A stretch of 64,000 nt of DNA. It comes from Prosapia bicincta. Its lineage: Eukaryota; Arthropoda; Insecta; Hemiptera; Cercopidae. Within the stretch, counting starts at the first letter, position 1. The number at the start of each line of letters is the position of its first letter. The translations under genes were made by a program, and so were the position numbers. The DNA lies in assembly GCA_036971475.1 (NCBI GenBank), contig JBAIZL010000001.1, positions 216,615,444 to 216,679,443 on the forward strand. The letters are read 5' to 3'. Positions 14,194 through 54,100 of the stretch are shown here, piece by piece. Below the pieces are notes generated by a model. It saw nothing but the letters and a program-made list of their open reading frames with translations. It did no database searches and was not told where the DNA came from.

Positions 14194-14709
14194 AATATAA
14201 AATACGTTTTCTTGTTTAATAATTTAAAACAACACAGGTTATTCAAATACAAGAATATTTATTATTTTATATCCAAAGCTTTTCGTTGGCAAACAGTACT
14301 AACATCATCAGGAATGAAAATTACAATAATGTAAGCTATAGGCCTAAAACATATGTTTATTTCTTGTTTATTTATTGTTTTAAAATATATATATTTATAT
14401 GAAGTTAATATATTACTATGTAAGTAATTTTATCCACCATTAAGTGCAATAATTTTACCTTGAGTGATGAGGCACCTTTCGGTCGTTGACCATTGTCGAA
14501 TCACTGATGTTTCTCTGCTCAGAGAAACTGAGCTCCTCTTCTTGAGCAGAGAAACATCAGTGATTCGACAATGGTCAACGACCGAAAGGTGCCTCATCAC
14601 TCAAGGTAAAATTATTGCACTTAATGGTGGATAAAATTACTTACATAGTAATATATTAACTTCATAAAGTCAGTGCAACGGAAAAACAATGGATAATGTT
14701 AAATATCAA

Positions 14710-14780
<71 letters not shown>

Positions 14781-15764
14781 GGTTAGTTTTGGTTGGTAAA
14801 GATTATTTAGATTTTTTGGACTAGGAGACTGACAGACTTACCTTGGTAAGAGTCCACTCTGTAGTCTTGAAATAGAAACACATAAAAGCATATATATATA
14901 TATGAGGTTAGAGTGATTCGACAATGGTCAATTGACCGAAAGGTGCCTCATCACTCAAGGTAAAATTATTGCACTTAATGGTGGATAAAATTACTTACAT
15001 AGTAATATATAACTTCATAAAGTCAGTGCAACGGAAAAACAATGGATAACGTTAAATATCAAGAATATATATATATATACTATAATTAAATAATATTAAA
15101 CTTAGAATAGTATTCACTTAATTGAGTATTATTTAATTATAGTTTAATCAGTACATTCGAGATGATTACAAGAAGCAACTTTATATATTAAAAAATATAT
15201 TTAAAACTGATTTTTTTTTCAGGCTTTGGAATTTGAAGATCCACCAAATAAAGAAGATCTGTTCAAAGCAATATTCCTCAGCAGTAGTGACGAGTCAGAT
15301 TCAGAAGAAACACAATCCAGAGGCAGTTCAGATAAAAATAATCTTCCAGAATCAACTAAACTTGTGGAAACAGCACCAGAAAAAATTAACGCTTTACGAA
15401 ACACATCACCACCCCGAGGAATTTTTGCAAACTTGGATCTTGATGCTATCAATGCCAGAAAGAAGAAAGTTGAATTTGATTCGAAAAGTGATGAAAATAG
15501 AGAAAGAGCAGAAAATTTAAATCAGTTTGCAGAAACTTCAACTCTATTTAATGATTTAACTTATGGACCATGTTTACCTGCGTTGTGTACTGTACAAGTA
15601 CATAAGCCTTCATCTGTTGTGAATGTAAATAACAGTGATGATGAGCGAACTTCAGATCACAAAAAGTCAGAGAAAAGACATAAGCATAAGAAAAAACACA
15701 AGAAGAAGTTTAAAAAAGAAAAGAAAAGGAAAGATCATAAAACACATAGACATAAGAAGAAAAA

Positions 15765-15768: not shown

Positions 15769-15835
<67 letters not shown>
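15769..15835. repeat. (TA)n microsatellite in GPATCH1 3' UTR
   Basis: About 33 TA units beginning immediately after the GPATCH1 stop codon. Confidence 0.97.
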
Positions 15836-15837
<2 letters not shown>

Positions 15838-15978
15838 TTAATGTAAGTATTTTTATAACCTGTAAATATGATTTAAAATTGTACATTTTTTGTATTTAGC
15901 TGTTTAAAAAAAACCTTTCCCTTGTTATTTAGTTAATAAGAATACTAATATAATTAAATCACAATGAAAAGAATTCTC

Positions 15979-15984
15979 AATAAA
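15979..15984 (+). promoter_or_regulatory. Candidate GPATCH1 polyadenylation signal
   Basis: AATAAA about 210 bases after the stop codon, the first canonical hexamer downstream, followed by T-rich sequence. Confidence 0.5.
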
Positions 15985-16900
15985 TTTTAGTATTCCTCGT
16001 ATTACTTTAAATGTTTATTTTGGTTTCCAGTGTTTGTGATAGTACCCATTCTTGAAAATTTCCTTATCCATTTCCTAACCATATTTGTATAGAAGACTTG
16101 GAAATGATACTGTTCCAAAATGATGGAAAAACAATGATATTCTTAAATAATTTGGAATCTAGAATTTGTACTGAATCGTATACTGTTCTGTTGAGTTGTT
16201 TTAAACGCCCTCTTCTGACATAATAATATCAAAAGCATAGCAGAGTTAAGAGCTTGTATCTTCATTCTGGCAACAAGGCCAGGTAAGCAGTGATCAATTG
16301 ATTTTTGAAAGATTTTCACACTTTTTCTTTTTTCTAAATTTTATTTTTATTTTTTTCTAATTTGTTAAAGTTATAGTAATATTAGTTAATATGTTTTTAA
16401 TTTAATTATTTACTCATGTTAACCAAACTATACCTTATGTTTACTGAACATTTCTTTACTAAAAATTATGTTAATCTTTTTTTTTTGGAAAATACTTATT
16501 CATTGTAAAATACTGCACAAACTTCGAAACAATCTGTAAACACGTGAGAAAAGCCATAGATTTTAAACACAAAAGAACTTTTTCACTATTCAATCGCCTA
16601 TTCATTTAAAATACTGCACAAACTTTGAAACAATCTGTAAACACGTGGAAAAACCCCTAGACTTTGGACACAAAAGAATGGCGACTATGTACTCTGTGTA
16701 GTATTTATTGGCAATGCTAATCTGAAAGAAATGGTAGAACGTACATGTACAGGAATGCTCCTGCTGGCCTTAGCAAAATCTCTTTCACTAGTACGTGAAT
16801 GCTAATCAAAGGGTTAAATCTTTTTTTTTAATATTTGTCTCATTTGAATCACATAAAGTATTCAAATATGATGTTGTTCATTTGCAGCTACCTTGGTGGC
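15985..16900. other. Intergenic with a two-copy tandem duplication
   Basis: A block of about 102 bp (AAAATACTGCACAAACTT and AACAATCTGTAAACACGTG) is repeated in tandem at about 16498-16697 with about 10 per cent difference. Otherwise unrecognised AT-rich DNA. Confidence 0.6.
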
Positions 16901-17054
16901 TATATATATATATATATATATGTGTATATATATTTAGGTTAGTTTTGGTTGGTAAAGATTATTTAGATTTTTTGGACTAGGAGACTGACAGACTTACCTT
17001 GGTAAGAGTCCACTCTGTAGTCTTGAAATAGAAACACATAAACGCACTTAAACA

Positions 17055-17092
17055 ATGATATATTTCAACCACACAGTGGTCTTTGTCAATCG
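17055..17092 (-). ncRNA. Hammerhead-like motif, family B (left arm)
   Basis: Minus strand: UUGACAA (17089-17083), A, stem II GACCAC/GUGGUU around UGU, GAAA (17066-17063), UAUA palindrome, UC. Stem I is weak. Confidence 0.38.
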
Positions 17093-17189
17093 AAAAGAAA
17101 ACACAAAAAGAAATATAAGAGAATGAAGTAAAATAGGTGATTACAATTATTTTACTTCATTCTCTCATATTTCTTTTTGTGTTTTCTCT

Positions 17190-17232
17190 TCGATTGACAA
17201 AGACCACTGTGTGGTTGAAATATATCATTGTT
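17190..17232 (+). ncRNA. Hammerhead-like motif, family B (right arm)
   Basis: UUGACAA at 17194-17200, one A, GACCAC UGU GUGGUU at 17202-17216, GAAA at 17217-17220, UAUA, UC. The core carries U3 and A8 instead of C3 and G8. Confidence 0.4.
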
Positions 17233-17314
17233 TAAGTGCTTTTATGTGTTTCTATTTCAAGACTACAGAGTGGACTCTTACCAAGGTAAGTCTGTCAGTC
17301 TCCTAGTCCAAAAA

Positions 17315-17318
<4 letters not shown>

Positions 17319-17443: not shown

Positions 17444-17486
17444 AGTGATGAGGCACCTTTCGGTCGTTGACCATTGTCGAATCACT
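17444..17486 (-). ncRNA. Hammerhead-like motif, family A
   Basis: Same elements as at 14463-14505, including UCGACAA and six-pair stem I. Confidence 0.45.
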
Positions 17487-17517: not shown

Positions 17518-17560
17518 AGTGATTCGACAATGGTCAACGACCGAAAGGTGCCTCATCACT
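17518..17560 (+). ncRNA. Hammerhead-like motif, family A
   Basis: Same elements as at 14559-14602; core UCGACAA at 17524-17530. Confidence 0.45.
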
Positions 17561-18123: not shown

Positions 18124-18347
18124 TTCTACTCTACACAATCTGTGATTACAATTATTTTATTTCATTCTCTCATATTTCTTTTTGTGTTTTCTCTTCGATT
18201 GATAAAGACCACTGTGTGGTCGAAATATATCATTGTTTAAGTGCCTTTATGTGTTACTATTTCAAGACTACAGAGTGGACTCTTACCAAGGTAAGTCTGT
18301 CAGTCTCCTAGTCCAAAAAATCTAAATAATCTTTACCAACCAAAACT

Positions 18348-18394: not shown

Positions 18395-18545
18395 TTTTAC
18401 GTTATCCATTGTTTTTCCGTTGCACTGACTTTATGAAGTTAATATATTACTATTGTAAGTAATTTTATCCACCATTAAGTCCAATGATTTTACCTTGTGT
18501 GATGAGGCGCCTTTCGGTCACTTGACCATTGTCGAGTCACTGATT
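18395..18545 (-). mobile_element. PLE arm, family A, joined to an RT/EN body
   Basis: Family A left arm with TA array on its outer side (18355-18387) and, on its inner side, the 3' part of the minus-strand PLE coding region at 18560-19740. This is the clearest link in the window between a hammerhead-like arm and a PLE body. Confidence 0.7.
18498..18541 (-). ncRNA. Hammerhead-like motif, family A, variant
   Basis: Core UCGACAA, stem II GGUCAA/GUGACC region, GAAA, perfect palindrome GGCGCC, UC. Stem I has one mispair (GUGAC against AUCAC). Confidence 0.4.
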
Positions 18546-18559: not shown

Positions 18560-19740
18560 GATGTTCTGTCCGTGATGTTGGTATTTGTTGACATTACACG
18601 TATTTTCTCTCGATCTGCGTGTATGATGTTTTTATATAGTATGTCTTCTGTATATGTAGTCTGTAGGTTCATTAAATTGTTGTGTTTTTATAAATGTGGT
18701 ATTTTTCTAGTGAGTTTAATTCTATTGGGTTATTTTTATTTCAAGTATGGTTAGGTTATTTTCGTAGTTTGTTATTTCATGTTTATGTGATATTAGGTGT
18801 GCTGCAACGTTTGATACTTTTGTATTTTTATTTTTGAATGCTCTGTAATGTTCTTCAAATCTTATTTTAAATGATCTGGTAGTTTTCCCTACGTAAAATG
18901 CGTTGCAGTCATTACATGTAATTTTGTAAATTCCTGATAGGTTATGTTTATCTGTATTTGTTTTGTGGTTTGTGTTATTAAGATATTTTATTATTTTGTT
19001 GTTTAGTTTGTATGTTGGAGTGTAGTATTCTTTGTTGTATATATTTGTTAATTTTTCTATTTTGTTATTGGTGTATTTATATTTTAGGTAGATTTTTTAA
19101 TTTTTATTATTTTTGTGTTCAGGTTGCAGTGTTGTGTTGAGGTTAGGTTTTTTTGTAAATTTATTGTTTTTTATAAGGTGTTTGTTGTATCCATTTTTTA
19201 TTTCTATTTTTGTAATGTTATCTAATTCTACATTTAATTTTTGTTTGTTATCTTGTGTATTTTATTGCTTTATTTATCATGTTACTGTGAGTGTTAATTT
19301 TGTGTGTCCAGGGGTGGTTAGATTTGTAGTGTATTGTGGTGTTGTTGGAAGTAGGTTTTCTGTGTACTGTAGTTTCTATTTTATTGTTATTTATATTTAA
19401 AGTGATGTCAAGATAGTTAATTGTTCTGTTTGTTTCTGTTTCGACAGTGAATTGTATGTTTTCGTTGTATATATTTAGTTTGTTTAGTATTATGATGTGT
19501 TCGTTGTGAATGGTGGGTTGGTATATTACAAGTATATCGTCTACGTATCTTGTCCATAGTAAAATATTATGTGTGTTTAGTATGGGTTTAATTATTATTT
19601 GTTCAAAGTGTTGTAGATATATTTCTGACATTACTGATGATATGGGTGATGCCATGGGGAGTCCAGTTGTTTGTTGATGATAGTATTTATTGTTAAATTG
19701 GAAGTAACTTTGGTTACATATGTGTTTTGTTAGTGTTTAA
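18560..19740 (-). mobile_element. Penelope-like retroelement, RT palm to GIY-YIG endonuclease
   Basis: Minus-strand translation from about 19740: FQFN, then GLPMASPISSVMSEIYLQ (RT motif with the small-residue PIS turn), LLWTRYVDDILVIYQ (catalytic YVDD), INYLDITLNI and VHRKPTSNNTTIHYKSNHP, which are PLE-specific blocks after the palm. A frameshift lies near 19250. The linker continues with PTYKLNNKIIKYL and then a full GIY-YIG start: LSGIYKITCNDC, AFYVGKTTRSFKIRFEEH and VAAHLISHKHEI. It is 5'-truncated upstream of 19740. A family A hammerhead-like arm lies directly at its 3' end. The RT-YIG combination is diagnostic of PLEs. Confidence 0.92.
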
Positions 19741-21040: not shown

Positions 21041-21043
21041 TAC

Positions 21044-22239: not shown

Positions 22240-22760
22240 AATAAGTATTAACTCAATGATAAACTAGTTTTATATCAAATTAAAGATATTTATTTTAATA
22301 GTGCAACGTTTCGGCAACTAGCACGTTGCCCTTATCAAACCTGAAAACAATATTACATTGATTTTAATTACACATATAAAATACAAGTAGATTTAAAAAA
22401 ATAATTTAAAACTCAATACAATTTTAGTAAAGAATTATGGTTAATTTTTGTAGTTGATCCTTTCGTTGTTGTTTTGTTTTGTTATTTTTGTGTGTTTTAT
22501 ATGTAAATATTGTCGTTCTCTCCGTGTTGTTACTGTTTTAATTGTTTTTAAATGATTTTATGACTCACTACTTCAGTAAGCTATTTTATTAAATATTTGA
22601 ATCAAATTTTATTGGCCATTTTTAAAGTTTTAATTTATTGTATTGAGTGTACTTGTTTTTTATATGTGTAATTAAAAGCAATATAATATTGTTATGAACT
22701 AGTTGCCAAAACACACTATTAAAATAAATATCTTTGATTCAATATTCAACCAGTTTATCA
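22240..22760. repeat. PLE-like inverted pair, family D
   Basis: Outer arms about 22240-22400 and 22640-22760 are diverged inverted copies (TATTTTAATAGTG and its complement CACTATTAAAATAAATATC). The middle is unrelated AT-rich DNA. Only the left arm keeps the full motif. Confidence 0.65.
22300..22345 (-). ncRNA. Hammerhead-like motif, family D (U3-A8 core)
   Basis: Minus strand: UUGAUAA (22338-22332), one G, stem II GGCAAC/GUUGCC (six perfect pairs) around GUGCUA, GAAA (22312-22309), then CGUUGCAC. Stem I and the palindrome of stem III are poor. Confidence 0.38.
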
Positions 22761-25395: not shown

Positions 25396-28300
25396 CTGAA
25401 TAAAAAAAAATTGTTATATTTTTTTGAAAATGTTTTGTTATTGTTTTACTTATGCTCCAACATTAAGTTTAAAAAGTACATAAAGTAAGAAAATGTGACG
25501 AGGCTAAGAGGGTTTGACGTCTATTGCACCAACGACCCATCAAGAATAGCCAGACGAGGGTCTGCAGTGATAATAAAGAATTCTATCAACCTTTCTCATA
25601 ATCTGGGGATACAACTTCCTATAATGCAAATCACTACGATCCTTGAATAATAGAAGAATAGAAGCCACTTCTCAGTATCTGCAATCTACAGTCCTCCAAA
25701 AACCGGTCTCCAGCAAGAACTACATTGAGCTTTTCACCAGCCTTGATTACAAGTTCCTAATGGCTGATTATTTGAATGCAAAACATACTTTTTGGAGCTC
25801 CAGTAATTAGGTAAACATTATTAAACTTCACAAGGTAAGGAAAGCTTGACAAAAGTGTAACTTCTTCTTCTCTGAGAGGACAATCTTCTGCCCAATTGAC
25901 ACAAGCAAATTGCCAGATTTGATTAATTTTTTTTGTCGGCACAGGGCTTGTGATTTCAGCTCTTACCACATGCCGATCATCCTAAGAATTAGGGAAAGAC
26001 TCTTGTCATGACATAGGGCTCTAAGTTGTCTAGTAGTAGGACTAACTGGAAGAGCTTTCGCTGGAACTGAAAAATAAAATCAAGCTCGCTGTGCCTCTAA
26101 GAGACAGCAACCAACTTGAAAGAGAAGTGGAAATAACAAATAAAAGACATTCACAAAACTCACAAATTAATCATTTATTGACTCATACACGTTTCAATGT
26201 CAAAGCAACACTCACTGATGATAATGACTTTGACACTGAAACGTGTATGAGTCAATAAATGATTAATTTGTGACTTTTGTGTATGTCTTTTATTTGTTTT
26301 AACATAACCTCACAAGTTAAGCTCAAAGAATAGTTGTCGAAGTGGAAATGTTTGTCAATCACCTATAACAGGCAGCTTGGATCAACAACCCAAAGCCAAT
26401 AAACAATAAAAAATGCTGCACCCTTGAGGTATAACTGCTAGTGAAGCAGAAGGGGAGAGCTCGATAGCCGTAATCCAACAGACTAAAAATGCTCAATGAA
26501 CTCACCGTGATACAATGCAGCAAATCAAGAATAATGCAGCCAGCAGCTACTTCCAGAGATTGTCACGAGAAAAAATCTATTACTTTTTGTAGCAAGCCAA
26601 AAGTTTACCCGAGAGGCCAAAATTACAAATGCCGCCAATCTGGCAATGACACATGGATAAAATATGATAGGAAAAATTCTTTGTAGACCACTTGGCAGTT
26701 ATCTTTACTAACAGTAACTACCAGTGAAAATGCAACTTATGTGAAGAAGAATGATACTCAGACTATTCAACGTGTCACCTTCAACGAATTTAAGAAAGAA
26801 ATAGCAAAGGTTCCCCCAAGAAAGAGACGGGTTATGATCTAACCACTGGACAAATCCTGAAGGAGATGCCAAACAAGGCTTTCATGAAACACCTCCATCT
26901 GATTAATGCAAGCTTCTGGCTAAAATTTGTTTCAAGGGAGTGGAAGGTAGCCAAAATACTAATGATTGCAAAGTCATGAAAATCACTGAATGGCAAAACA
27001 TTTTATCACCCAATATAATTGCTTCCAGTGATATCACAAGTGTTTGAATGTCTGCTGCTGGAGTGTCTTAAACCAATAAGAAGAGTGGGGTTTGGTTCTG
27101 AACTACCAATACAGCTTCTGAAGTAAAGACTCTACTAAAATAGGTGCACCAAATTGTGGAATTTACTGAGGAGCCCTTGGGCACGAAGAGGTCATGTTCT
27201 GGGATCTTTTTCAGTGTCTTCCAGGCATTTGACCATGTCTGGTAGGCTGGCTTGCTGTTGAAATTTTTTCGTGATCTTCCAGAGAAGTTTGCCAAATATT
27301 CAATTCTTACCTTGTAGACATAATTTTACACGGTAAACAAGATAGGCAGTACTCCAGTTTCAAAGACATGGTTGTAGGAATGCCTCAGGGTAGTATCTTT
27401 GGCATCATTATGATGACCAACACTGACGACTCAGCTATCTTGTCCATCACACAAAATGAGGCAGAAAAAAAACAGCTAAATTGCAGCTACCCTGATCAGG
27501 GTCAGTGACTGGACCAGATAGAGATGCATATAGCTTAATAAAAGCAAATCAGCTCATGTTATATTTATCAATAAGGCAGAGAGCCAGCCTGACCTCATAA
27601 TAAATGAGTAGCCCAAACCCTTAGCCCAAACGCGAAATACCTAGGTCAAACACTGAATGCTAAACTAAAGTGGTAATTCCACATGAAGAAAAACAGAAAT
27701 GAACTGGAAATCCGCTACAGGAGACTAGCATGGCTTATTGGTCGGTTTTATGAGTCGAACCCCTATAATGAATTGGTTGTGTACAAACAAGTGCTCATGC
27801 CCAAGTACACGTACAGGATGCCAATCTGGGGATCCACCAAGAGCAACAATCTGCATGTTATCGAGTGCTTTAAAAATAAAATGTTTATAGAGGCACAGTG
27901 AGGACTCCATGGTATGTCCAAAACTCTGCCATACTTAGAGATCTCAAGATGAAGAGTATGAGAAAGACGGTCACAGCTACAGCAGTGTATCACTTTCGAG
28001 CGGCTCCCGCAACACAAAACCCTACAACTCTATGGGTGGCTCACAGGGTGCCATAAAATAAAGGAATCATTTAATGTTTTGGTGATGTGCTTTGGCTACC
28101 TTGGTCAGTTAATCTAAGTGTTTGTGATTTTTTCTTGTGGAATTACCTCAAACCTCATGTATATGAATATAACTACCAAACATTAGTAAAAATGAAAGAA
28201 CCAATTTGCCGCCAATTGTAGAGAACCAATGAGATAATCTTTAAAAAAGTGTTGAATAATTTTGAAAGAAGGCTTGAGAATTACATTGCATAAAAAGGTT

Positions 28301-31300: not shown

Positions 31301-34300
31301 CCCTCTCTCTCTCTTGGATGAAATTCTCCCGCCAAGTTTCTTAAAACACTAAATTTCACTTTATTAATAACTAACCCAGCCTTACTGAATTCCTCTCCCA
31401 CCTCCCTTAAATTCCAACCCATCTTCCCCTTACTATCTCCCACCTAGGGCCCTCCCATTACATTCACATACATCAATCTCAACATATCCAAACCTTCTCA
31501 GAGTATCCAAGAACCATCCATGTAGTAGTTAGCGTCAATCCAAATATCCCTTTTATTGTAGATTGAAGGCAAATACTGATACAGGGCGTTTTTGTGTTTA
31601 AAAATTTAATAGAAATTTGGGTAATTCCAAAAACCCAAAACATTGTGCCAAGAACTTTCCTAGCTGCTGAGATAGATTTAGATTACAAATAAAAGGTGAT
31701 TCAAAAATAGCGCCAGTTTTGATATATCAAATTACAAGATTTATTTTAATAAAACACTAAAACTAAATACATCAACATGTTCTTCTAGCCCTCCAATTTC
31801 ATGTACAAAAAATGATATCTGATTTCATACATGTGTCCTTATCTACTGCTCTGTACGCAACAATTCTCTCCATGAAATTAACTATTACTGAAAGACAATA
31901 TTAATTAAAACAACCTCTCACCACAAATTCAACAAATTTTATTTTAACCTTATGTACATTTCGACTACAAAGTAATCATCTTCAGTCGAAAGTAATCAAT
32001 CATCTTCAGTAATCATGATTACTTTGTAGTCGAAATGTACATAAGGTTAAAATAAAATTTGTTGAATTTGTGGTGAGAGGTTGTTTTAATTAATATAAAC
32101 ATTTACGCCACAGTTGCTTTAAGACTGAAAGACAAGTTTCCACTTCCAATTCGCCGATAACCTGTCAAATTTCCTCCTTCAAGTCATTGATGTTTCATGG
32201 TTTATTGGCATACACAGATGAATGTAGATGACCTCACAGAGGAAAGTCACAAGACCTTGGTGATCATTGGTGGTAGGATTTACGAGAAATAACGCAATCC
32301 TGGAATCGTTCACGGAGCAACACAATTGTTTCGCAGGCAGCATATAAGGTGGCAACTGACGATTCCACACTGCTTGATCGAGTTATTACAGGTGATTAAA
32401 GCTGGTTTTTCCAATACAACCCGGAAACCAAACCCCAAAGCTCACAATGGTTGTCTCTGCAAGGCCCCCCCCCCACCCGTAAAAAGCTCGCATGAGCCAG
32501 TCAAAGGTGAAAGTGATGACCATTACCTTTTTTGATAGCCTTGGAATCGTTCACAAAGAATTTGTTCCACCGGGACAAATTGTAAATCAAGTATACTGTC
32601 GCCAAGTAGTCAAAAGATTGTGGAAACGAGTCAACAGGGCGCGCCCAGACATCGTGAAACACCTGGATGTTGCGACCGCCCTCAGCGTGTCGCAGTATTA
32701 GGCCTCTAAAGGGATTGCCGTTTTGCAACAGTCGCCTTATTCGCCCGATATGTCACCCTGTGACTTTTTATTGTTTCCTAAAGCAAAATCGGTGGTCAAA
32801 GGAACCCATTTCGAGTCGATTGAGTACATCCAAGTGGCTGTGACAAGGGTATTCGCGGCCATCCCAGTCGAAGTGTTCCAGAAATGTTATGAAGCGTGAA
32901 AAACGCGCTGGAATCTTTGTATATCTGCCCAAGGGGACTACTTTGAAGGGGATGGCATAGTTGTAGCATAATTTTGTAATATACGGTTTTTATGGAATCA
33001 GTCTCATTACTTAATTCTCACACCTCGTACAGTTTTTTCTTTCGACTTACTCTATCCGAGACAAAATAAATAATATTACCTAATATTCACTCCTAAGATA
33101 CTCCCAAAATAGTTAGTTAATTTTATTTCAAGTTATGTAATGGGTTTTAATGGCAGACTACACTCTGACATACAAATGTGCCAGGTTATGGAAGCAAGGT
33201 GAGGTTGTATTTTGCACAGGTCTGCTGTAGGGTCTGATAGTGAATGTCTCGTCAAAAATGTACTTGGTCCCTAAGGAGGCTCAAATGTTAGGGGTTTTGT
33301 TACATTATGTATCACACACACACATGTTGTACACACACACATTTAGTTATTCTAATATATGGCAATTAAAGGAAAAAATGTAATAATAAAATAATGACAA
33401 AAAATAGGTTAAAAGTTGTTTAAAACTTATTAATTTAAAAGATTTACATAGTTATTTTTTTTAAGCTCTTACCTTTAATAAAGGCATGGTTGATCCGCCA
33501 AACACTAAAGTAGTCACTAGGACTATAATAAGAGTGGTTGTAATTATAACATGCCGTGTTTCATCGCTGAACTCTAAATGCAAAGACAGAGCATACGATA
33601 TAGCCCCTCGTAGTCCTGTAAACATTCAACGAGATTAGTGACTAGGTGACTTTTGATTATCTTATAAAATAACAGAGATGGATTTTTTTTAAATTAAAAA
33701 GTAGCTCTTAAAACATATTCCAGTTATTGAAAAATAAATGTAAAAACATATACTTTTCACGATCTAGCTATACTCTAGTCTGAAAATGGGATACATAATA
33801 GGAGTGATAAAATAGAAGGAAGAATTTAACCAACGACAAACTCGATTTATTTTAAGATAATCAGTGAAAACAACTATGATCAGCAACGATGAGGGAAGGA
33901 TTTTGAATAATAGATAAGATTAGTGTAGTGAAACAAAACTCCGTGGATCTTGGCTTCTTCTCTGCATGGTTGGATAGTTGAAGTAGAACTATTGAGTTAA
34001 TCTAGAAATTAATTATAAATAAATAAAATCTCTTGAACCACAAAAACGTTTTATTTATATCCTGATGTACATTTCGATTGCAAAGCAATCTTCACAGGAA
34101 ATTACTACAAGACTAACCTCTTTAGTCTTTATTGAGTTAGTATTGTATTAATTTCCTCTGAAGATTACTGCTTTGCAATCGAAATCTACACCAGAACATA
34201 AATAAAAAGTGTTTGTGGTTTAAGGGTTTTATTTATTTATAATTAAAAATTACACCACAGTTGTTCCAAGTTATTATGATCTAGATGTTTATCCATTATT

Positions 34301-34763: not shown

Positions 34764-37700
34764 TAAATTTCAATATAAATTATTAATGTTGCTTGATGTA
34801 ATCATCTTGAATTCACTGATTAAACTAATTTTAAAAATACTTAACTAAGTGAATACGTAGATGCTTATTTGCTGACGCGTTTCAAAACATTCGTTCCTTT
34901 TACGAAGCTAACCCTCTACTGGTGGCATCAGTTGGGTGTAAAGGCTCTAACGGGAATAGATTTATGACTGTGGAATGGGTTGGGTTGTGTGAGTTGTGTG
35001 TCATATAATAGAAAAGGCTGTTGGCTTCAAAGTGTGTATGATCATTTAATAAGTTTTCTTTATCTGTTGCGTAGTGTTTGTAGATTTCATATTTTTCTAA
35101 GGTTGTTAGTTTTTTACTTTGTTTTTAATGTGTGTAGAACATTTAAATTAGTGTGTATGTGTGTGTGTGTGTGTGTGTGTTGGGTTTTTTTAGGTGTGTT
35201 TGTGTAGCTGGATTTAGGGTTTGTTTGTTTTATTTGGGTAATGTGTTCTTCGAAACATGTATAGAATGACCTGCCGGTTTGGCTGATGTCATGTAACGAT
35301 TGTCCCAACTATTACTAGTTTAATAAATTGTATTTGAATATGAGTGGATGAATAAAAAGTATTTTATTAACGACTGAAAATTTGTTCAAGATATATATTG
35401 GGAGAGTGTGAGCTATTTGTTGCCTAATTCTCATTTAATATAACATAAAAGAGGGAGCTTTGTAGCAATATTTATTCCTGTTTATCCTAGATTTACTAAA
35501 AACTTTTTCAGTTACATTTTTCATCTCATTTTTTGGTCAAAAAACAGAAACAGCAACTTATACGAAAAACCTAATTGGCATTTTTAAAAAAATGTACTTG
35601 TTAATGTATCAATTTCAGACCTATGTTTATATGATATTTTTTCTTAGTTTTAGCTGTAGATTGAGCTGTGAAAATTCAACTATTGCTTAATGAATCACTC
35701 TTTATAATAATTAGTACAGAACTCTTGTATGTAGGTAAGACAACATAAAATATTATAAATTAACATGTGTATTTCAAATTTTTGTAAAATTATGCTTACA
35801 AATACAGTAGAGTCTCGAAATTCCGAGCTTCAATTAAATTCAAGTCTGGCTTGGAGTTGGCTTAGTCGCTCAATTAATCAGGTAAGCAGTGGTACTTGAA
35901 AAGAAATTTTAATGTCAGCATTTTCGGTTTCATATAAGAACTAGAGTGGCGATTTAATGGATAGATAACTGTTCAAAGAGTGGTTTATTAAGTTTGTGTC
36001 CGAAACTGAAAAGTTTTTAAAAGCAAAGAATTTACCTCAGAAGGCAATACACCGTGGTATTTCAATGAAGATCAACTGTACTCCGGTGATATCCATGCTT
36101 TATTTCTACCCGCAAATGTTACAAGCCTAATCTAGGCGATGAATCAGGGTGTTCTGGAATATAAGGAAAAAATATAGACGTTACCTTTTACAATCTCTCT
36201 TGGAAGCGCCTAAAGGAAAAGAAAGCACTGTAGGTTTCCTAAAAAATTACAGTTAAGGGTGTTGTGTACTGGATAGCTGAACCACAAAATGTAAAAAGAA
36301 ACATTAAGTTGTTGTGGGATAAAAAAAACTGAGTCGTGACGAAACTGTTAACTGTGTTATTGATCCACAAGAAGAAATAGATTTTCTTATCAAGAAACTT
36401 CCAGGGTGTGAACTATTTGAGATAACAGATGTTACGATTATGAAATGGAACAAAAAACTACTGAAGGCACTGACGATGAGAATAAAGATGAAGGTTAGAC
36501 TGCCATGGTCGAGAATAAAGAGAAGGGAAAATTAGTCATGGTGACAGAACAACCGCCTTGGAAACTGCACTATGCTATGATGAACAACTTATTCCAAACC
36601 AACATTAATTTATTTAAGTACTGTAATCAATTAAGTTCTATAAATTTATTTTGTGCAATCTTAATTATAGTATTAAAGTTCATTAGAACGCCTTTTTTTC
36701 TAATGCAATCTGAGTTGTCGGTAATCCGAGGGGGTCTCGGTCCTATCTAGCTCAAATTATAGAGACTCTATTGTAATTTTTTGTAACAACAAATTTAAAG
36801 CAATTTAAATAGTTATGTATGACAATAAATAATCAAAGGAAAGGGATTAAAGCTATCTAAGTCTTGTTTATAATTCAAATAATTTTTAGGTACGAATTTT
36901 AAAAACAGAAGTTTTATAAAATTGAAATAATTAGTTGTGATTGTCAATTTTATTTACTTTACAAACTCATTGCAAATATTTTTTACAAATTATTTTTGTT
37001 TTGAAGTAAAAGTTTTAAAATTGTTTGTAAGATCTGCATGACAAACATGCACTCTGAAATTCAGTTAGACATCTAATTTATAATGCAATTACACAAGTTG
37101 AACTGAGTGAAACAAAATATTTTTAATTGAATAAGTAGTAAGAATATTTGTCACTCAGTCTTTTTACTTTTCCATATTTGCAAAGACTGAAATAGAAAAT
37201 TATGAGAGAGGTTTTTTAGAACTGACCAGCCCACAATACCTGTGCTTCGAATCCATCTAAAAATAAATTACTTTAAACATAAATTATAATACCACTTACC
37301 ACTAAACCACATTATAAACATCATTTTTTTGGTAATTTTATGTTCGCGGAATTTGTTAACTAACAGTGCCAAAGGAAATATATTGCACGCTCGTCCAATC
37401 AAACATAATATGAGACTCCATATAACCAATTCAGGTTCCACCCTATGACGAAAACTGAATATGGCCAACCCTAGATATGCGAAAACACAGGTTTCAGCAA
37501 TGAAAGCTAGAGTCCGCATAGTCTGTTGCATAGTAATCTGGGTGACTGTTGATAAGTTGTAATGAGTATAGTGTGACATTACAACTCCACAGAATAGTAT
37601 TGCCATGATTCCTAGAAACAAGAAACGAGTTATAGGAAATTTATTTACTTAATATTAAAATATAGGCTTTAAGCTCTATTAAAACTAACCCCATTAATAC

Positions 37701-39763: not shown

Positions 39764-41863
39764 AGAGATGTATGATGTTTAATTGACTTTTTTTTAACTG
39801 TAACTAGTATGAAACCATTTGGGATGAAAAATACCTAACATTATTTTACAATTTCTATTGAAAAAAATAAATTAAACACAAAAACCCTTCACACTACGTC
39901 TTCTGCTTTTGCCATTTTCCTTTCCATATGACGTCGGTATCACAGATATATACGAACATAGATAAACATATGACAAATATTTGTTGTAAATGTATTTTTC
40001 AGTTATAATCTTATATAAACCAGTAATGTTAAAACTGTAGTTTTTTAAGTACAGAAAGAAAATCACTTTCATATGTAATTTCTATCTTAGATTACAAAGA
40101 GCATTTGTTCTAATGACAAAAATCTACATTTTTAAAATTACAGAAATATAGATTTAAAAAAAGCTTCCTTGAATTTCTATAATATAAGCTTTTTCATTTA
40201 CAAGATACGTAGCAGATAGTTTATTCTGTTATTCTTGAGTCTTCAGTAAAAACATTTAAAATTGTTGACGATTTCTTATACAATGTTTATCATATATTTA
40301 AAGTGAATTTTTAACCAATTTTTCCGCAACCAATCGATATGTAAATTCATGTTATTTATTGTATATACACCTTAAAATCGATTTTAAAAAATGATTTTTT
40401 TTAATACCCATTTCCTATTTCATTCATTGAGTGTGTATACAATAATTCGTTGATACATGTCAAAACATGTTCTCGAATATTCAACGTCATTGTGTCAATT
40501 CGTCATTTTTATGTGGTGGCAGGTTAAAGACTGAATCAAAGAGGAATAACAAGTACCGACTTCATTCACTGAAGATAATTTCTTTCTTTCCATTCAAAGA
40601 TCCGTACACTAAGAACCGATCACTTCAGTACAGTGTTTTCTGTTCTGTGATTATAAAATATTTTGTTTATGTTGAAGTGTTATTGCCGGTTAAAAGGTAG
40701 GCAGGAAGGTCTAACTCTAACATAAAAGTTATCGGTAATAGAACTTTTGACATGTGATGTTTGTTTACTTGTAGAATAATATTTTTTAGTTTATGGTAAG
40801 TATCAAACAAAGTAAGGACCTGTGTTTCTTGTAATTATTTTTCCACGTCCAGTTTTCTTGGTGATCAGTAGTAGTAATTTTTTTCATTGTCTATTGACTA
40901 CCTAGGAGTTCATATAAACCAATAAGTAAGTATAGTGGTTAATTTCTTGGTAATTAGCGACTACCTCTCTGATTGGCGAAATGTTTTAAATCCTGGTCAA
41001 TTTGATCATGCTGAACACGAATCTGAAGTTATTTGTAACGGCAAACATGAAATAAACTAATCTAACATGACCTAGGTGCTTACTAAAACTATGATTGCGC
41101 AAAATTTTTTATTCTAGTAAAAAATAGTAAAAAATTTAGATAGTAAAAAATTGCGCGAATCTTAGTGGCAAACTCAAGTCACATGACCCGCAAGATCCTC
41201 TCCGACTCTGACAAATGCCACGTGACTTTTTATTTGAAAAGGCACGAATCTTTGTTATTTTTAGTGGCAAACCAAAATCAACCCTTATGGGGATTGTAGT
41301 CGTGGGACCTGAAACATGCTTTCTAATTGACCAACTGATACCGCCTGACTTTTCTACCGAAAAAGCTTGTATTTAGTGTATGTGTGTGAGACGATGGGCT
41401 GTGACAGATCTTGCCATACATTATTTTTCGAAGCTTGTTTGTTCAATGAAAATCGGGTTATTGAGGCTTTATGTTCGCACAACGTGCTCCCGACGAAGAC
41501 GAACTGTTTGTAGTGCTATAACACAGTGAAGATCACTGACTACTTCAAGTTTAGGTGTGGGAAGGTTGTTTTGTTGCTAAAGTTAGGCCGGAAAAAGTGT
41601 GGGTGGAGGGTTTCAGCCAAGGTAGGTTCGTTTTTAGAGCAAACCAAAGTGAATATAAACCAACTCAGTGCAATATCAACTATGTACCAATCAAAATACC
41701 TAGTTTAAGTTAGTTTTATTTTATGTTAATTTATGTTTGCAGTTAAAAATAACTTCATATTCATGTTCATGATGGTTAAATTGACCAATAAATATATTTA
41801 TAGTAAATAAATCTTACAATAAATAAATCTTTAGTATTTTCTTAAAACATTTATAAAAATAAA
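39764..41863. other. Region upstream of NHE8
   Basis: Should hold the NHE8 promoter and 5' UTR. No coding exon recognised. Two E-box-type sites at 41178-41226 are listed separately. A repeated phrase (TTAGTGGCAAAC) occurs at 41162 and 41262. Confidence 0.45.
41178..41226. promoter_or_regulatory. Two CLEAR/E-box-like sites upstream of NHE8
   Basis: GTCACATGAC at 41178-41187 and GCCACGTGAC at 41217-41226 each differ by one base from the MiT/TFE consensus GTCACGTGAC. They lie about 1.4 kb upstream of the NHE8 start codon. The transcription start is unknown, and such 10-mers occur by chance, so this is tentative. Confidence 0.22.
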
Positions 41864-42943
41864 GGTAATTATTCCGACGTGCGACTACCGCTATTTTCGT
41901 GAAATTTTTTTACTTTTCTTATGTATTTTTACGTCCTAAACACGAATCCAACATTAATAATTGTCGCTGACGCCGTTTTTTTAAAATATACTTAAAAACA
42001 TAACCTTTATTGACGTAAGTTCAGACGCCCTACTACCGCTATTCCGACGTGCGACTACCGCTATTTTCGTGAATTTTTTTTACTTTTCTTATGTATTTTA
42101 ACGTCCTAAACACGAATCCAACAATAATAATTGTCGCTGACGCCGTTTATTTTAAAATATACTTAAAAAACATAACCTTTTTTGACGTAAGTTCAGACGC
42201 GCTACTACCGCTATTCCGACGTGCGACTACCGCTATTTTCGTGAATTTTTTTTACTTTTCTTATGTATTTTTACGTCCTAGACACGAATCCAACATTAAT
42301 TATTGTCACTGACGCCTTTTTTTAAAATTATACTTAAAAAACATAACCTTTATTGACGTAAGTTCAAACGTGCTACTACAGCTATTCCTACGTGCGACTA
42401 CCGCTATTTTCGTGAATTACCTACGAATTACTACCTACAAAGTATCCAGTCAGGATAGATTTGGTTATAATTTAATAAAGATAGATAGTAATTCTGAATA
42501 AAATTATTACCAAACCTAACCTGACTGGATACTTTGTAGGTATATTTTAATGTAGGTATATAATAATGTAATTACAGATCTAGACGTAGTGCAGTGCGCT
42601 GTAGCAACTGCGCGCTCGGTTCACGCTATAGGCCTACATGTCATTACAATGTAACATTTAAAATGTGAATTAAAGTAACTTTCACAAAAATTCATAAAAA
42701 TGTAGCGAACGTACATATGTAAAAACGTGAAAATACATAAGAAAAGTAAAAACAAATTCACGAAAATAGCGTTAGTCGTACGTCAATAAAGGTTAGTTTA
42801 GGTTATGTTTTTTAAGTATATTTTAAAAAAACGGCGTCAGCGACAATTATTAATGTTGGATTCGTGTTTAGGACGTAAAAATACATAAGAAAAGTAAAAA
42901 AATTTCACGAAACTAGCGGTAGTCGCACGTCGGAATAATTACC
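41864..42943. mobile_element. Foldback transposon with tandem-repeat arms
   Basis: Ends GGTAATTATTCCGACGTGCG and its complement, with a perfect 8 bp target duplication AAAATAAA (41856-41863 and 42944-42951). The left arm holds three full units of about 171 bp plus a partial fourth (units start at 41871, 42041, 42213 and 42384); the right arm holds about one and a half inverted units. No coding region. Long TIRs made of repeated units and an 8 bp duplication resemble Foldback/Galileo-type elements or MULE derivatives. The centre (42420-42545) holds two inverted copies of a motif found as a minisatellite at 47284-47585. Confidence 0.9.
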
Positions 42944-44042: not shown

Positions 44043-44090
44043 GACGCGTTTGAAAACGATTGTTCCTTTTACGAAGCTAACCCTCTACTG
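44043..44090 (-). ncRNA. Hammerhead-like motif, family F (upstream repeat)
   Basis: Minus strand: UUAGCU, UCGUAAA, A, GGAAC/GUUUU stem II, then CAAA in place of GAAA, CGCG, UC, AGC. Same order as 34869-34912. Confidence 0.3.
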
Positions 44091-45144: not shown

Positions 45145-46196
45145 CCGTTAGCGCTTGGATTTTTTAACAGCCTTGCTTCCCCACTTGTAATTAAATTGAG
45201 ACAAATTCCTCACCTGCAAGTTGCATTATTGTTTATGGAAAACTTTGTTTTCTCTTACATGATTTTAGTAAACTAAGCTATTTTGATTCACTAATACTGT
45301 ATGTACATAATTTTATTATCTTATTTGAAGTTTAGCAGAGTTTTATATCTCTGAAAACAGTCTTCCGGATGAAGTCCTGGTTTTCTGCTGCATGTTTTGC
45401 AGTGAAAAACTGTTTCCCTTCTACCTCCTTTTATCTTCCTGGATCTGCAAACTAAACAATCCTTAGAACTACTTTTATCATTGGAAAAGATTAAATGTAA
45501 TTTCCCATTCAGTCTTTCTTCTTTGTCAGTAGTTGATGGCCGACCCTCTTACTGTACGGGTTATTCCTGATATGACCGATGCGTCCCCTCATCAAGTTAT
45601 GGCAAAACTATTTTTGTTTAACAGGATTTTCCCTCATTTCCTTTTTTTTTGTTATTATAGATAATAAAACTGTTTACTACAGCTACATCTAATAGCCAGT
45701 AAACATTTTCCTCCACCATTTATTTGTTCGTCTCATAAAACTGCACGGTTCATTATATTGAACAGCTAAATCTACACCACTCATAAACTGGTTATATTTA
45801 CAAATACCTATTGGTTTAATTATTTTGTTTATGAAACTGAACTACATTCTAATAAATCAGGATCAAGTAAAAGATCAGGAATTTCAGAATCACTAATTGC
45901 ATGTGAAGCCATGGCAAACTACGAGTAAACAAATAACCTGCAAAACTGTAACCTACTTGCAGCTTATAACGTAGCGGCAAACTAGATTTTGTGATGACTC
46001 ACATATTCCTAGACACTTTCAACTTAGTTCACATTATTGTCAATAGAGTGTAGCACCAAACAGTAAAAGATTGAATGTCGTGCGCTTTGCCACAGACGAG
46101 TTATAAGCATTCGAAAATCGTGTCGGGTGACCCCCGGCATACGAGTAAACTGCAATATACGCTTGGCGGGGCTCCCCCGACAGTCAAGTGCTAAGG
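45145..46196 (-). mobile_element. piggyBac-type element, internally deleted
   Basis: Left end CCGTTAGCGCTTGG follows TTAA (45141-45144). The right end, read inward, is CCTTAGCACTTGACTG, followed outside by ATAA, a one-base change from TTAA. Minus-strand coding remnants in order: MASHAISDSEIPDLLLDPDL (short acidic N-terminus), then directly YNQFMSGVDLAVQYN, the M-GVDLxDQ block, NKWWRKMFTGY, and a C-terminal Cys-rich domain CLVCRSRKIKGGRRETVFHC followed by CSRKPGLHPEDCF. The catalytic Asp region between the N-terminus and GVDL is gone. The element is 1052 bp and sits inside the PLE coding region. Confidence 0.93.
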
Positions 46197-46764
46197 ATAA
46201 TACCATAAAATACATCGCTCAACAAAACGGCTACCAACACACACTCATAGACAACATTCTCAGGAAAATCAAACATAAACACCATCAAACGGCCACACAA
46301 ACACACCACACAAAAAACAACAAATACATATCCCTTACCTACCACAACAAAAACACACACAAAATAGCCTTCACATTAAAAAAACTCCATTACCAAATAT
46401 CCTACAAAACAACAAACACTCCAAGAAAACATATACAATCTTTTCAAAAAGAAACTGACATATATAAACTCTTAGGTATTTACAAATTAACTTGCAACGA
46501 TTGTAAAACACCCAACACACACATATCGACTACACACTAATTTAAATGTTCTACACACATTAAAAACAGAGTAAATAACTAACAACCATAGAAAAATATG
46601 AAATCTACAAACACTACGCAACAGACAGGGAGAATGTATTAAACGATCACAGTTTGAAGCCAATAGCCTTTTCCAGTACATGACACAAGATGCCGACACC
46701 TCACCCCACTCCACTGTCATAAATCCATCCTCGTCATACCGTTTGTAAACTACCAAAATGCTGC

Positions 46765-46815
46765 CAGTAGAGGGTTAGCTTCGTAAAAGGAATGATCATT
46801 TGGAAACGCATCAAG
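46765..46815 (+). ncRNA. Hammerhead-like motif, family F (downstream repeat)
   Basis: UUAGCU, UCGUAAA, A, GGAAU and a short loop, then GAAA, CGCA, UC. Partly decayed copy of the 34869-34912 motif in the orientation of the PLE gene. Confidence 0.32.
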
Positions 46816-48617: not shown

Positions 48618-48661
48618 AGTGATGAGGCACCTTTCGGTCAATTGACCATTGTCGAATCACT
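48618..48661 (-). ncRNA. Hammerhead-like motif, family A
   Basis: AGUGAU, UCGACAA, U, GGUC AAUU GACC, GAAA, GGUGCC, UC, AUCACU on the minus strand. Confidence 0.45.
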
Positions 48662-48686
48662 GATGTTTTTCTCGAGAAAAATCATT

Positions 48687-48729
48687 GTGATTCGACAATG
48701 GTCAATTGACCGAAAGGTGCCTCATCACT
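48687..48729 (+). ncRNA. Hammerhead-like motif, family A
   Basis: GUGAU, UCGACAA (48692-48698), U, GGUC AAUU GACC, GAAA (48712-48715), GGUGCC, UC, AUCAC. Confidence 0.45.
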
Positions 48730-49329: not shown

Positions 49330-50998
49330 ATTATAGCATTTACCCAATAACTAGACTGGTAAAAGTACGGTATTAAATCTAGGTTTATGTAATGATTTAG
49401 AAAATAAATATTTTTCACTCTTTAAAAATTTTGAGAACAAAAAATTTTATTTTCATGAATAATTTATCAGTCCAACAGACAAGTCATTTGTCAAGAGTGT
49501 AAGGCAAAGACCGTTGATTTAAAGGTATGGTAATGCAAGGAAAGATCAAATGCATGGTAATTCGGCATAAGCCATCTGTTTATACTTACTGGTATATACT
49601 TTTTCAGACCGGAAATTATATATAGTGCGCCAGTTATACACAATGGATTAAGTTTTTGAAATGTGACTGTTTTGAGAAAAAAATCTTATGTGACTGTTTT
49701 GAGCTCTCTTATCTAAGGAGGAGGTATCTTTAATAAGACCGCAAGGATCGTTCTCTTGAGCTGTATTGCACGCAAATTGCATTTCTAAAATAAAAGAAAC
49801 AGTGAGCAAAACTAAAACCATCATCGGTGCATGCATGTTGGTAGGAACTAAGGCAAGACTGTGTTAACCAGATGCTCACAACTTTGTTACTGATATTGTC
49901 TTAATAGTACATGGAAGTAACAGTGAAGATGTCAACAATTTTTTGTAAAATGCAAGCGTGGATTTAACGGAAAAAGAGATGGAAGAACTAATTCTGTTTC
50001 TTATCCCTATGCCTATCTCGGATAGCGAAGAAATATTAGAAATTGTAGTGCCAAAGTTAACATTAAAATATAAATGTTTGTCTAAATTGAGACCTAAAAT
50101 ATAGTGCTTAGTTTAACTAAGGATCGTATTTTGGATTATATACACTCGTTTTAAATTGTCAACCTTCAACCATCAAAATCCTCTTTCATTTTTCTTAGTT
50201 AGAATTTTCCCTTCTGTTATGCCTTTCTCACTCATATACCTACTAATATTTTCTTCCTCTAATCTGCTTGGCATGCTTATTTTATCTAATAATTGTTTGT
50301 ATGTTCTGTGTAATTTGGTAATTTACACAGCTTGGACAGAGCATCCATTTCTGTGGGATCTATAGTTATTCTTGTATCTTGCTCCTCCAAATTTCAACAC
50401 ATATAATTATACAAATTCTATACCTCCACCATAACCATTTGGAGTTTTCAATATTTTGTTCATTAATTATAATATTTACCGTACTTTGTTTTATTCATTT
50501 CTCTTTTGAGGAACTTGCTTTCTTGACAACTGGATTCTCCATTGTTCAGCTGTAATTGTCTATTTTAGTCACCAGTGCACTGTCATGTCATCAGATATTT
50601 CAATATCTAATAAAGCTTATTTCTGCTCTGTTTAGGATGAGAGACATTTTAGAAGAAAATGACAATTCCCTTACCATTCAGTGCCATGCTGATACCTTAA
50701 AAATAAACAGAAGTGAAATAGCAAAAAATATTTAAATGCTTTAGACTTATTGTAATTGTTAAATTGATACACAATATAGGTACTCTTGTTTTGGTTACAA
50801 TTATTATTTGGACTAAAAGTATCTGTTTATTAACTATTCTGTTCAGTTGGTTGCTCATATTGTGTTAAATCATTGCAACTCTGTATCACATGAAACTATA
50901 ATACACTTTAAGGAAGCAAATTACTGTGTTAGTAAATAATGTAAGCAAAAATTTATAATGAACTCTTTGTTTCAGAGCTATTGTTTCGAAATTAAATT
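49330..50998. other. Upstream region of the RAP1-like gene
   Basis: Unassigned. Contains a short minus-strand frame with signal-peptide-like start (49648-49836) and a plus-strand open stretch near 49961-50104 (VDLTEKEMEELILFLIP) without recognised homology. ATTGTTTCAG-type T-rich/AG sequence just before the RAP1-like ATG could be a 5' UTR splice acceptor. Confidence 0.35.
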
Positions 50999-51148
50999 AT
51001 GACAACTGAAGTTATATTTCCCTACATAGATTATTCACAAGCAGATTGGTGTAGGTCAATGTTTTTAGACACTAATTTCAAACCAATGTGGTTTGTCCTT
51101 TGTACAAAATGTTTAAAGCTAAAAGAAGGTCTTAAAAAGTTTATTGAG
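50999..51148 (+). CDS. RAP1-like exon 1
   Basis: 50 codons from ATG to FIE, donor GTAAGT at 51149. Begins MTTEVIFPYIDYSQADW and contains FLDTNFKPMWFVL. Confidence 0.72.
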
Positions 51149-54100
51149 GTAAGTGTGTGTAAGGTTCCTTGAATTCTTTATTTTTTGTGGTTATAAATCC
51201 ATAATGTTTTCAGATATAGGAGTATAATAAGTACATAGGGGGGGGGGCAGAAATTACTTAGAAATTTGAAATAATTTCTAAGATAAAATAAAGAAGTAAT
51301 GTTACATGAAATATAGTCCTATATTTCTCAGTGTCCCAACTCTCTGTGTATCTTTACAGTAAATAAAGGTATCAAATTAAAACTTTATCTGATTGTAACA
51401 GTTTGAGGTTTATGTATAAATTCTACTTTTTTGTATTAATTTGGCATAAAAACCACTACTTACTGATTAATTCAGCAGATACGTTTCGTACCAGGTCAGC
51501 GCATTATTCAATGCTGTAAATCACTGACAAGACTGTTGCTCAGATGTGTTGTGTTGGTGTGAGTCCGTGGTGTTTTTCTATTCTGCAGTCTGTTATTGAT
51601 CATAGAGTAGTTGTTAATCATGTGCTCAAATATAGTCTAAATGACAAAACACACTCACAATCAAATACTATATTTGAGCACATAATTAACAACTACTCCA
51701 TGAACAATAACACACCTCAGAACAGAAATACACCATAGACTCATACCAACACAACACACCTGAACAACAGTCTTGTCAGTATTTCACAAAATTAAATAAT
51801 GCACTGACCTAGTGCAAAACACGTGTGCTGAATAAATCAGTAAGTAGTGGTCTTTTTGCCAAGTTAATACAAAAAATGTAAATTTTCTGATTGTTAGTAT
51901 AACAAAAATCTGTTTTTTAAAATAAAATAAGAAAAACATAATTCGCAGTTTCAAAATGGTAGGCATACAAAACCTTTAAAGTGTAATAACTCAAAGAGGG
52001 ATATTTTGTAAAAAATATATACGGATTATATGTGATTGCTTAGTTTAAATAAAAATATTGAGTCCATTGTGACAAAAGACAGAATATTGAAAGATTTCTT
52101 TCCTTGTGTCAAAATACGCTAAATTATTATTGTTGTTTCATAATCAGCTGGAATATTGAAGGTTTTGGTAAGCACCTTTCCTTGTGCCAAAATACACTGA
52201 CTAAATTATTATTGTTGTTTCATAATCAGCTGGAATATTGAAGGTTTTGGTAAGCACCTATCCTTGTGCCAAAATACACTGACTAAATTATTATTGTTGT
52301 TTCATAATCAGCTGTAATATTGAAGGTTTCCAAAATACACTGACTAAATTATTATTGTTGTTTCATAATCAGCTGGAATATTGAAGGTTTTGGTAAGCAC
52401 CTTTCCTTGTGCCAAAATACACTGACTAAATTATTATTGTTGTTTCATAATCAGCTGGAATATTGAAGGTTTTGGTAAGCACCATTCCTTGTGCCAAAAT
52501 ACACTGACTAAATTATTATTGTTGTTTCATAATCAGCTGTAATATTGAAGGTTTTGGTAAGCACCTTTCCTTGTGGCAAAATACACTGACTAAATTATTA
52601 TTGTTGTTTCATAATCAGCTGGAATATTGAAGGTTTTGGTAAGCACCTTTCCTTGTGCCAAAATACACTGACTAAATTATTAATGTTGCTTCATAATCAG
52701 AAGGAGTATTGAAGGTTTTGGTAAGCACCTTTTCTTGTATCAAATACACTGACTAAATTATTATTGTTGTTTCATAATCAGCTGCAATATTGAAGGTTTT
52801 GGTAAGCACCTTTCCTTGCATCAATAAACAATACCTGAAAAAAAATTGTTTTAAAGTAGAATCTTTATAAGTCGAACTCAGTTAACACGTATCTGTTAAT
52901 AACCCGTAATAATTTTGAAGTACAATAAATAAGAAATTAAAATCAAATTAGTACAATACATAATCGGCTTATAACTGCAGATAAACAAAATAATGTTTTG
53001 TGCTTCTTATGCTGAAAAGACTATAGGATACTGCACGAGAGAGGCTTACAAAATGTAAACAGATAAAAATGACAGATTTATTTGCTAAGAAATTAATTGC
53101 AGTGGAGTTTACCTGTATACACAATATGTATGTTTATTTACTGTACGTAATAGCCTTTGTTTGATAAATTTAAAGAAGTTTTTCTGTAAGTATCATGTCT
53201 TCTTTTAATTTATTCTTGGTCTCCAGCTAATTTGGATGGGCCACAGTCCCAGTTAGTCCAAATTATCGAGGTTCTACTCTACATAAATTACACAATTTAC
53301 AAAATATTTCATTTGCCTTGTGCCAATTTGTGTACCTTTCTCCAATGAACTTACTATATTAGGTTAAACATTTTTATCTAAGTTTTGTTTGCACTTAGTC
53401 TACCAACACTCTTCAATCAGAACATTTGCTTGTCCCTTGCTTTTGTTTCTTATCAACTAACTTCTGAGACAAGATATCTGTGCCTTGCAACTACAACCAC
53501 TTAACCTTAGCGACTTATGTTACTGCTTACTCCTGAATATGCATACTAACTGCATGGTTAGCCTTTTTTTTTAACACTGACCATTTGCATCTGAGAATTA
53601 TTGCTTTGCTATTTCCTTATTGCCTTTACATTTACTGTCTTATATAAATTTAAGCCTGTACATATTGTATCATAACCTCTTCTTATAACTTACAATATTT
53701 TGTACATTTTACCCTTACACAATTTTCTCTTTTTAAAATTCAAATCCCATACTTTGAAATTTCAATGTCGTTTTTTTTTAATTCAATCCCATGAATTTCA
53801 AATTACATTCGCTGATCTTAAACTAACTTGTGTGGAGAAAAGGTCACCATCACATGTAGACAAATAAGTGATATTCAATGGATCCTAAATAGCACTGAGA
53901 CTGTGACTTGGCATCCAAGTGTTTGCGCCGAGCCTAAACTAACTTCGTGGAGAAAAAGCAACCAGCACATACAGACAAAATAATTTTTATGGAAATCGCA
54001 GTATGTTTCTGAAAACATACTGTCTTTTTTTGTCTTTATTTCTGAAAATTGTTTGCCCTAATTTTCTTCTGAAAATCAATGTAATTTGGATAGTTTGAGT

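Follow-up and report, generated by a model that had tools for sequence, protein, structure and literature searches.

Paired U3-A8 cores in hammerhead-like motifs, candidate ribozymes, of Penelope-like elements from Prosapia bicincta

Do hammerhead-like motifs that carry U at core position 3 and A at position 8 form a class in which these two positions have been exchanged together? The question was raised by a 64,000-nucleotide (nt) stretch of AT-rich animal DNA from Prosapia bicincta (hereafter, the window; the assembly has 2.2 Gb in 361 contigs). The original prediction placed five motif families of the window, A, B, D, F, and E, in the hammerhead layout with U3 and A8. We found that this holds for A, B, and D and partly for F, most copies of which also lack A6, while neither F nor E belongs in one group with A. 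The U3-A8 motifs are real, paired, abundant, and hammerhead-like and, judged by sequence, are candidate ribozymes; their context, seen for family A, is that of a Penelope-like element (PLE).

The motif scan was blind to positions 3 and 8 and held Y4, G5, A6, A9, the linker, and GAAA obligatory, so that G5, A6, A9, and GAAA are present by construction in all scanned motifs. We applied it to the window plus 20 stretches of 10 kb taken at even steps from contig C79 (264 kb) and to the same set with 10 stretches added later (364 kb). The 364-kb scan detected 38 motifs: 16 were C3-G8, 15 were U3-A8, and the others were A-G (3), C-T (2), C-C (1), and C-A (1). The 3-8 complementarity was kept as either U-A or C-G in the two main groups, which supports a paired exchange; the canonical families here carry C3 and G8. 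The seven remaining motifs can be read as chance, as copies in decay, or as the result of a triplet shift. Two of the A-G motifs (in L059 and L068; L-numbered stretches such as L064 and L076 are DNA outside the window) resemble a triplet shift of the canonical core, the C-T motif in L070 is a family f1 copy that has decayed, and each of the remainder stands alone in the sample. Requiring a stem II of at least 5 base pairs (bp), the 264-kb scan found 34 motifs (C3-G8, 15; U3-A8, 14; A-G, 2; C-A, C-C, and C-T, 1 each), as compared to an average of 2.7 motifs of any state (0.3 with U3-A8 and none with C3-G8) in 10 order-2 Markov versions of the same 264 kb. The original prediction had allowed that the motifs might be unrelated hairpins; this excess disfavors that outcome for A, B, D, G, and H. 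With a stem II of 4 bp, the 264 kb yielded 44 motifs (C-G, 15; U-A, 19; C-A, 3; A-G, 2; five other states, 1 each).

Because A and B copies dominate the window, raw motif counts are not independent. Counted by family in the 364-kb scan, with an A3-G8 singleton (L076, position 881) excluded, U3-A8 was found in A, B, D, F, G, and H and C3-G8 in f0, f1, and f5, with no convincing mixed family. For six versus three families, none of them mixed, p is 0.012 assuming family independence, 0.018 without F, and 0.17 if there were only two lineages per state. We also collected 77 copies by similarity, 72 of them with a readable core. The family label was taken from the reference copy, and thus this collection gauges the stability of the 3/8 state within families. 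In the U3-A8 families, U and A were found by position in 32 of 34 copies (some cores being otherwise decayed), the two others being A..A and U..U; none of the 34 carried C3 or G8. Conversely, none of the 38 readable copies of C3-G8 families carried U3 (C-G, 25; A-G, 6; C-A, 3; C-T, 2; A-T, 1; G-G, 1).

Family A, credited with seven copies in the original prediction, has eight in the window by its core UCGACAA followed by GAAA (Table 1). All 12 A, B, and D motifs of the window (A, 8; B, 3; D, 1) have stem II, the one-base linker, and GAAA. When the stems were assigned by hand, family A showed stem I AGUGAU/AUCACU, stem II GGUC/GACC, a 3-bp stem III with a 2-nt loop, U16.1, and C17 (a U-C site); the copy at 18535(-) has one mismatch at either end of stem I. 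In the window, the copies are arranged as inverted pairs adjoining (AT)n tracts. Fragments of a reverse transcriptase (RT) with the YVDD motif and of a GIY-YIG endonuclease span 19736-18722 on the minus strand. The pairing of these two proteins is a hallmark of PLEs. About 190 nt separate the 3' end of the endonuclease frame from the family A motif at 18535(-), which is on the same strand, and in L076, an endonuclease match at 2832-3137(+) (89% identical) is followed by a family A motif at 3380(+). The position typical of a PLE hammerhead, in a terminal repeat beside RT and GIY-YIG, was found for family A in the window and in L076 (there with GIY-YIG) and for family F in the window, while B, D, G, and H showed no link to an open reading frame (ORF) of their own. 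The element of family A, PLE-A, gave 39,687 first-look candidates in the genome; the 150 that were scored were all 92-100% identical, with open frames up to 864 amino acids (aa). PLE-A is young and abundant. Its RT protein had no match among the viral contigs. Pattern matches in viral contigs (49, 2, and 11 stretches for three patterns) were read as chance, L092 excepted, where two adjacent motifs look by eye like an ordinary phage-type hammerhead pair.

Next, we counted exact family A motifs in the whole genome, with the reversed pattern as a control. We found 15,978 copies with U3/A8, 15 with U3/G8 (a total of 15,993 with U3), and none with C3/G8 or with the reversed pattern. Since there is little decay in family A, and about zero double changes are expected anyway, these counts show youth and uniformity rather than compensation. 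The question of coupling was answered in part: no independent drift was seen in the similarity collection (0 of the 34 readable copies of U3-A8 families with C3 or G8), while family A is too young to prove compensation. The data here show the sequence class itself, the number of its copies, its setting in a PLE in the case of family A, and how seldom positions 3 and 8 are in mixed states.

Family H appears, from its sequence, to offer the best sign of constraint and the strongest single argument. One copy in L064 reads UGAUGC-UCGACAA-U-AGAGAU..AUCUUU-GAAA-GU UA AC-UC-GCAUAA. It shares the core UCGACAA and the U-C site with A, and its stems I, II, and III pair with other letters. In the other L064 copy, stems I and III still pair, and stem II is weaker. 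A pattern fixing GCUCGACAA and CUUUGAAAG, with the remainder free, matched the genome 518 times, and its reversed control had no match.

Families B and D have a good stem II and an N-U-H site in the stems assigned by hand. Family G also has stem II and an N-U-H site, and its L064 copies carry G at position 17. The D motif had 179 genome matches and none with the reversed pattern. On contig C119 (232106-236905), the nine D motifs listed lie on one strand with spacings that are multiples of about 159 bases, which suggests a retrozyme-like tandem array bearing a U3-A8 hammerhead-like motif. Family F is a real repeat family with 10 copies in 364 kb, reading UCGUAAA in five and UCGAAAA in one. It was first accepted as a good U3-A8 family on the copy at L051 9747 and was demoted because A6 is missing from most copies. 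By eye, a stretch that does not look like PLE (45157-46180) seems to split the window's PLE-F copy between its RT and endonuclease parts. The E core, UUGAAUAA, has eight bases, one of them extra, and is rejected by the scan descriptor; E may be what is left of a hammerhead that gained a core base. In the E palindrome (51418-51885), inspected by eye, one arm has GCACU-GACCU-AGUGC as a possible stem II after UUAAAUAAU, and the other arm has UUGAAUAAU.

All of these families come from one genome. That a PLE clade underwent the double change once, before it split into A, B, D, F, G, and H, has roughly even odds; the coupling would then be real, but as one event rather than repeated compensation. 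The p value of 0.012 presumes independent families and rises to the 0.17 given above for two lineages per state. This history sits less easily with the endonucleases: those beside A and F share 38.7% identity over 75 aa, and the one beside A shares 31.5% over 108 aa with that beside a canonical-type motif in L068, so that A and F are hardly closer, as far as pairwise identity of short domains can tell. A single switch is compatible with our preferred explanation, to which we assign a probability of about 50%, namely, that these are type I hammerhead motifs with a short stem III in PLE terminal repeats, in which C3-G8 has been swapped for U3-A8, and that A and H are predicted to fold and cleave.

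A and H have the hammerhead layout, with stems I to III around the core, A15.1-U16.1, and an N-U-H site. The core letters C3 and G8 are absent from A, B, D, G, H, and F, which carry U3/A8 instead; with two core letters outside the consensus, they are a variant rather than a strict member of the class. G5, A6, A9, G12, A13, and A14 are kept in 9 of the 10 A copies found by similarity, while F is mostly without A6. U4 is present in B, D, G, and all 16 C3-G8 motifs of the 364-kb scan, and C4 was seen only with U3-A8, save for two chance-like single motifs. In A, H, and F the change of U4 to C accompanies the U3-A8 replacement.

According to PMC6155905, G12 is the proposed base of hammerheads and the 2'-OH of G8, not its nucleobase, the proposed acid. 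The predicted change of the general-acid nucleobase from G to A does not stand on this account, since replacing G8 with A would leave no changed general-acid nucleobase. Folding, cleavage, and any role in processing of the element's RNA are predictions from the sequence. The RNA of A and H would still fold as a hammerhead, and the cut would follow position 17, the C of AUC/CUC; residue 8 would go on supplying its 2'-OH, and G12 would act as the base; a U-A pair at 3-8 can preserve both geometry and hydroxyl, and a second RNA copy or a PLE protein would probably assist. We also considered a shifted uridine turn, with U3-C4-G5 read as U-N-R, the rule for such turns. Any Watson-Crick 3-8 pair was reportedly active in one hammerhead, with Y3-R8 preferred in another (Przybilski and Hammann 2007). 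In PAc, a PLE hammerhead of Anolis (PMC11167929), C3G or G8C abolishes cleavage and the double mutant partly restores it. A bolder reading, which we regard as somewhat doubtful, is that U3-A8 would be a well-established and functional alternative to the standard core. It would be fixed in a number of PLE lineages of this genome, one of them young and very abundant, and would permit the change of U4 to C; the "invariant" C3/G8 would then be a sampling effect of searches demanding them.

Several observations weigh against a working ribozyme. C4 replaces U4 in A, F, and H, disturbing the uridine turn; stem I is poor in B, D, and G; half of the F copies (5 of 10, UCGUAAA) lack A6, a deviation beyond the 3/8 exchange; and one of three H copies (L066) reads UCGAAAU. 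For A, B, and D, the folding energies do not surpass those of shuffled sequences (z values of -0.39, -0.03, -1.20, and -1.57), and for one A form and for D the structure of lowest energy differs from a hammerhead. Intact-looking ORFs are tied only to the PLE of family A, the ORF copies being counted separately from the A motifs. Last, hammerhead mutants of PAc left in vitro insertion unaffected, and cleavage required protein (PMC11167929), so that the motif may be dispensable.

Another explanation is that the motifs are remnants: a PLE ancestor would have lost its ribozyme, the U3/A8 hairpin would have another use, for example to bind a protein or to initiate reverse transcription, or would hitchhike in an element that is young and successful, and the exchange would be one inherited accident. 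The independence of PAc insertion in vitro from hammerhead cleavage (PMC11167929), the poor stem I of B, D, and G, the loss of A6 in F, and the changed U4 of A, H, and F all fit such a loss, and family A is so young that its uniformity (15 U3/G8 versus 15,978) needs no selection. Against it, A and H differ in their letters but keep stems I to III compatible and the U-C site, and loss of function does not predict a joint change in six families with no mixed family. We regard this explanation as possible, at rather less than even odds. By analogy, U3-A8 is a plausible working core, and the PLE equally may not need a ribozyme.

Rfam reported no hammerhead in the window, whether at gathering score or with E values of up to 5. 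It did not report the canonical C3-G8 motifs either, and thus this result does not separate the two classes. Matches to Rfam microRNA models were rejected as evidence either way, as these models fit palindromes; plant MIR family models matched inverted repeat pairs at 31912-32082, 26137-26298, 3104-3336, and 17069-17214 on both strands, below gathering score, a palindrome artifact. That the motifs are unrelated hairpins resembling hammerheads by chance is very improbable: the lack of an Rfam call, the deviations of E and F beyond positions 3 and 8, and the ordinary energies would fit it, but the excess over the Markov controls (34 versus 2.7), the empty reversed-pattern controls for A, H, and D, and the position relative to the PLE endonuclease, found to be the same in two cases, do not.

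Table 1. Motifs and PLE fragments located in the window, with canonical cores for comparison
Feature	Positions	Strand	Core first letter	Basis
Family A motif, core UCGACAA	14463..14505	-	14499	core pattern and stems
Family A motif, inverted partner of 14463..14505	14559..14601	+	14565	core pattern, inverted repeat
Family A motif, stem I AGUGAU/AUCACU, stem II GGUC/GACC, stem III AGG-UG-CCU, U-C site	14912..14955	+	14918	
Family A motif	17444..17486	-	17480	core pattern and stems
Family A motif, inverted partner of 17444..17486	17518..17560	+	17524	core pattern, inverted repeat
Family A motif of PLE with RT/endonuclease upstream, same strand	18498..18541	-	18535	core pattern, ORFs, stems
Family A motif	48618..48661	-	48655	core pattern and stems
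Family A motif, inverted partner of 48618..48661	48686..48729	+	48692	core pattern, inverted repeat
PLE-A GIY-YIG endonuclease fragment	18725..19096	-		Pfam GIY-YIG, 24.5 bits (cut-off 22.6)
PLE-A RT fragment, YVDD	19251..19736	-		Pfam RVT_1, E 4e-06, 27.1 bits (under the 29.6 cut-off)
Family B motif (UUGACAA), poor stem I	17051..17095	-	17089	core pattern and stems
Family B motif (UUGACAA)	17188..17232	+	17194	core pattern and stems
Family B motif (UUGAUAA)	18193..18237	+	18199	core pattern and stems
Family D motif (UUGAUAA, GAAACGUU), poor stem I	22299..22344	-	22338	core pattern and stems
Family F core UCGUAAA, 3' of broken PLE endonuclease (46067-46540)	46781..46787	+		
Family F core UCGUAAA	34899..34905	-		
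Family F core UCGUAAA, opposite end of PLE-F copy	44068..44074	-		
Family E core UUGAAUAA, candidate only	51504..51511	-		pattern and eye
C3-G8 core CUGAUGA, comparison	2981..2987	-		
C3-G8 core CUGAUGA, comparison	3454..3460	+		
C3-G8 core CUGAAGA with 3-bp stem III, comparison	31979..31985	-		
C3-G8 core CUGAUGA, family f1	14305..14311	-		
C3-G8 core CUGAUGA, family f1	54912..54918	+		

The window also holds a 64-bp tandem array of about 15 copies with 97% match (7007-7974), an 82-bp array with a shortened 61-bp unit (52098-52818), and a 172-bp array (41870-42418 and 42809-42943), one part of which also occurs nearby as an inverted copy. A 470-aa open frame at 10352-12106(-) resembles, by eye, a Tigger/pogo-type transposase, and open frames at 37268-39778(-) resemble sodium/proton exchanger exons, also by eye.

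Hammerhead motifs of PLEs have reportedly been described by Cervera and De la Pena 2014 and Lunse et al. 2017. The motifs described here resemble those of PLEs, including PAc, in their type I layout, the single base between A9 and stem II, the very short stem III, and their inverted or tandem copies adjoining a PLE ORF; they differ in having U3 and A8, together with C4 in A, H, and F. PAc naturally carries C3 and G8, and the mutants assayed in PMC11167929 were C3G/G8C, not U3/A8. Animal retrozymes and the Dolichopoda pDo500 satellite (PMC7229834 and PMC2837043) are likewise repetitive animal hammerheads, which the 159-bp-spaced D array on C119 resembles, whereas in our data six families carry the exchange as a rule. 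Engineered 3-8 exchanges (Martick and Scott 2006, as cited in PMC11167929) also retained Watson-Crick complementarity, but those were laboratory mutants and ours are genomic families. The same reportedly applies to the exchanges of Przybilski and Hammann. Our literature search found no natural U3-A8 hammerhead, with most subscription papers outside its reach, and we do not claim its absence from print.

If inactive, the U3-A8 motifs would be a clean case of a PLE spreading without its ribozyme, which bears on whether PLEs need one. If active, they would represent a natural compensatory exchange of the tertiary core pair, known to us only from mutants; motif searches with a fixed core would miss abundant families, and tens of thousands of copies would be at hand to probe how the hammerhead core can change.

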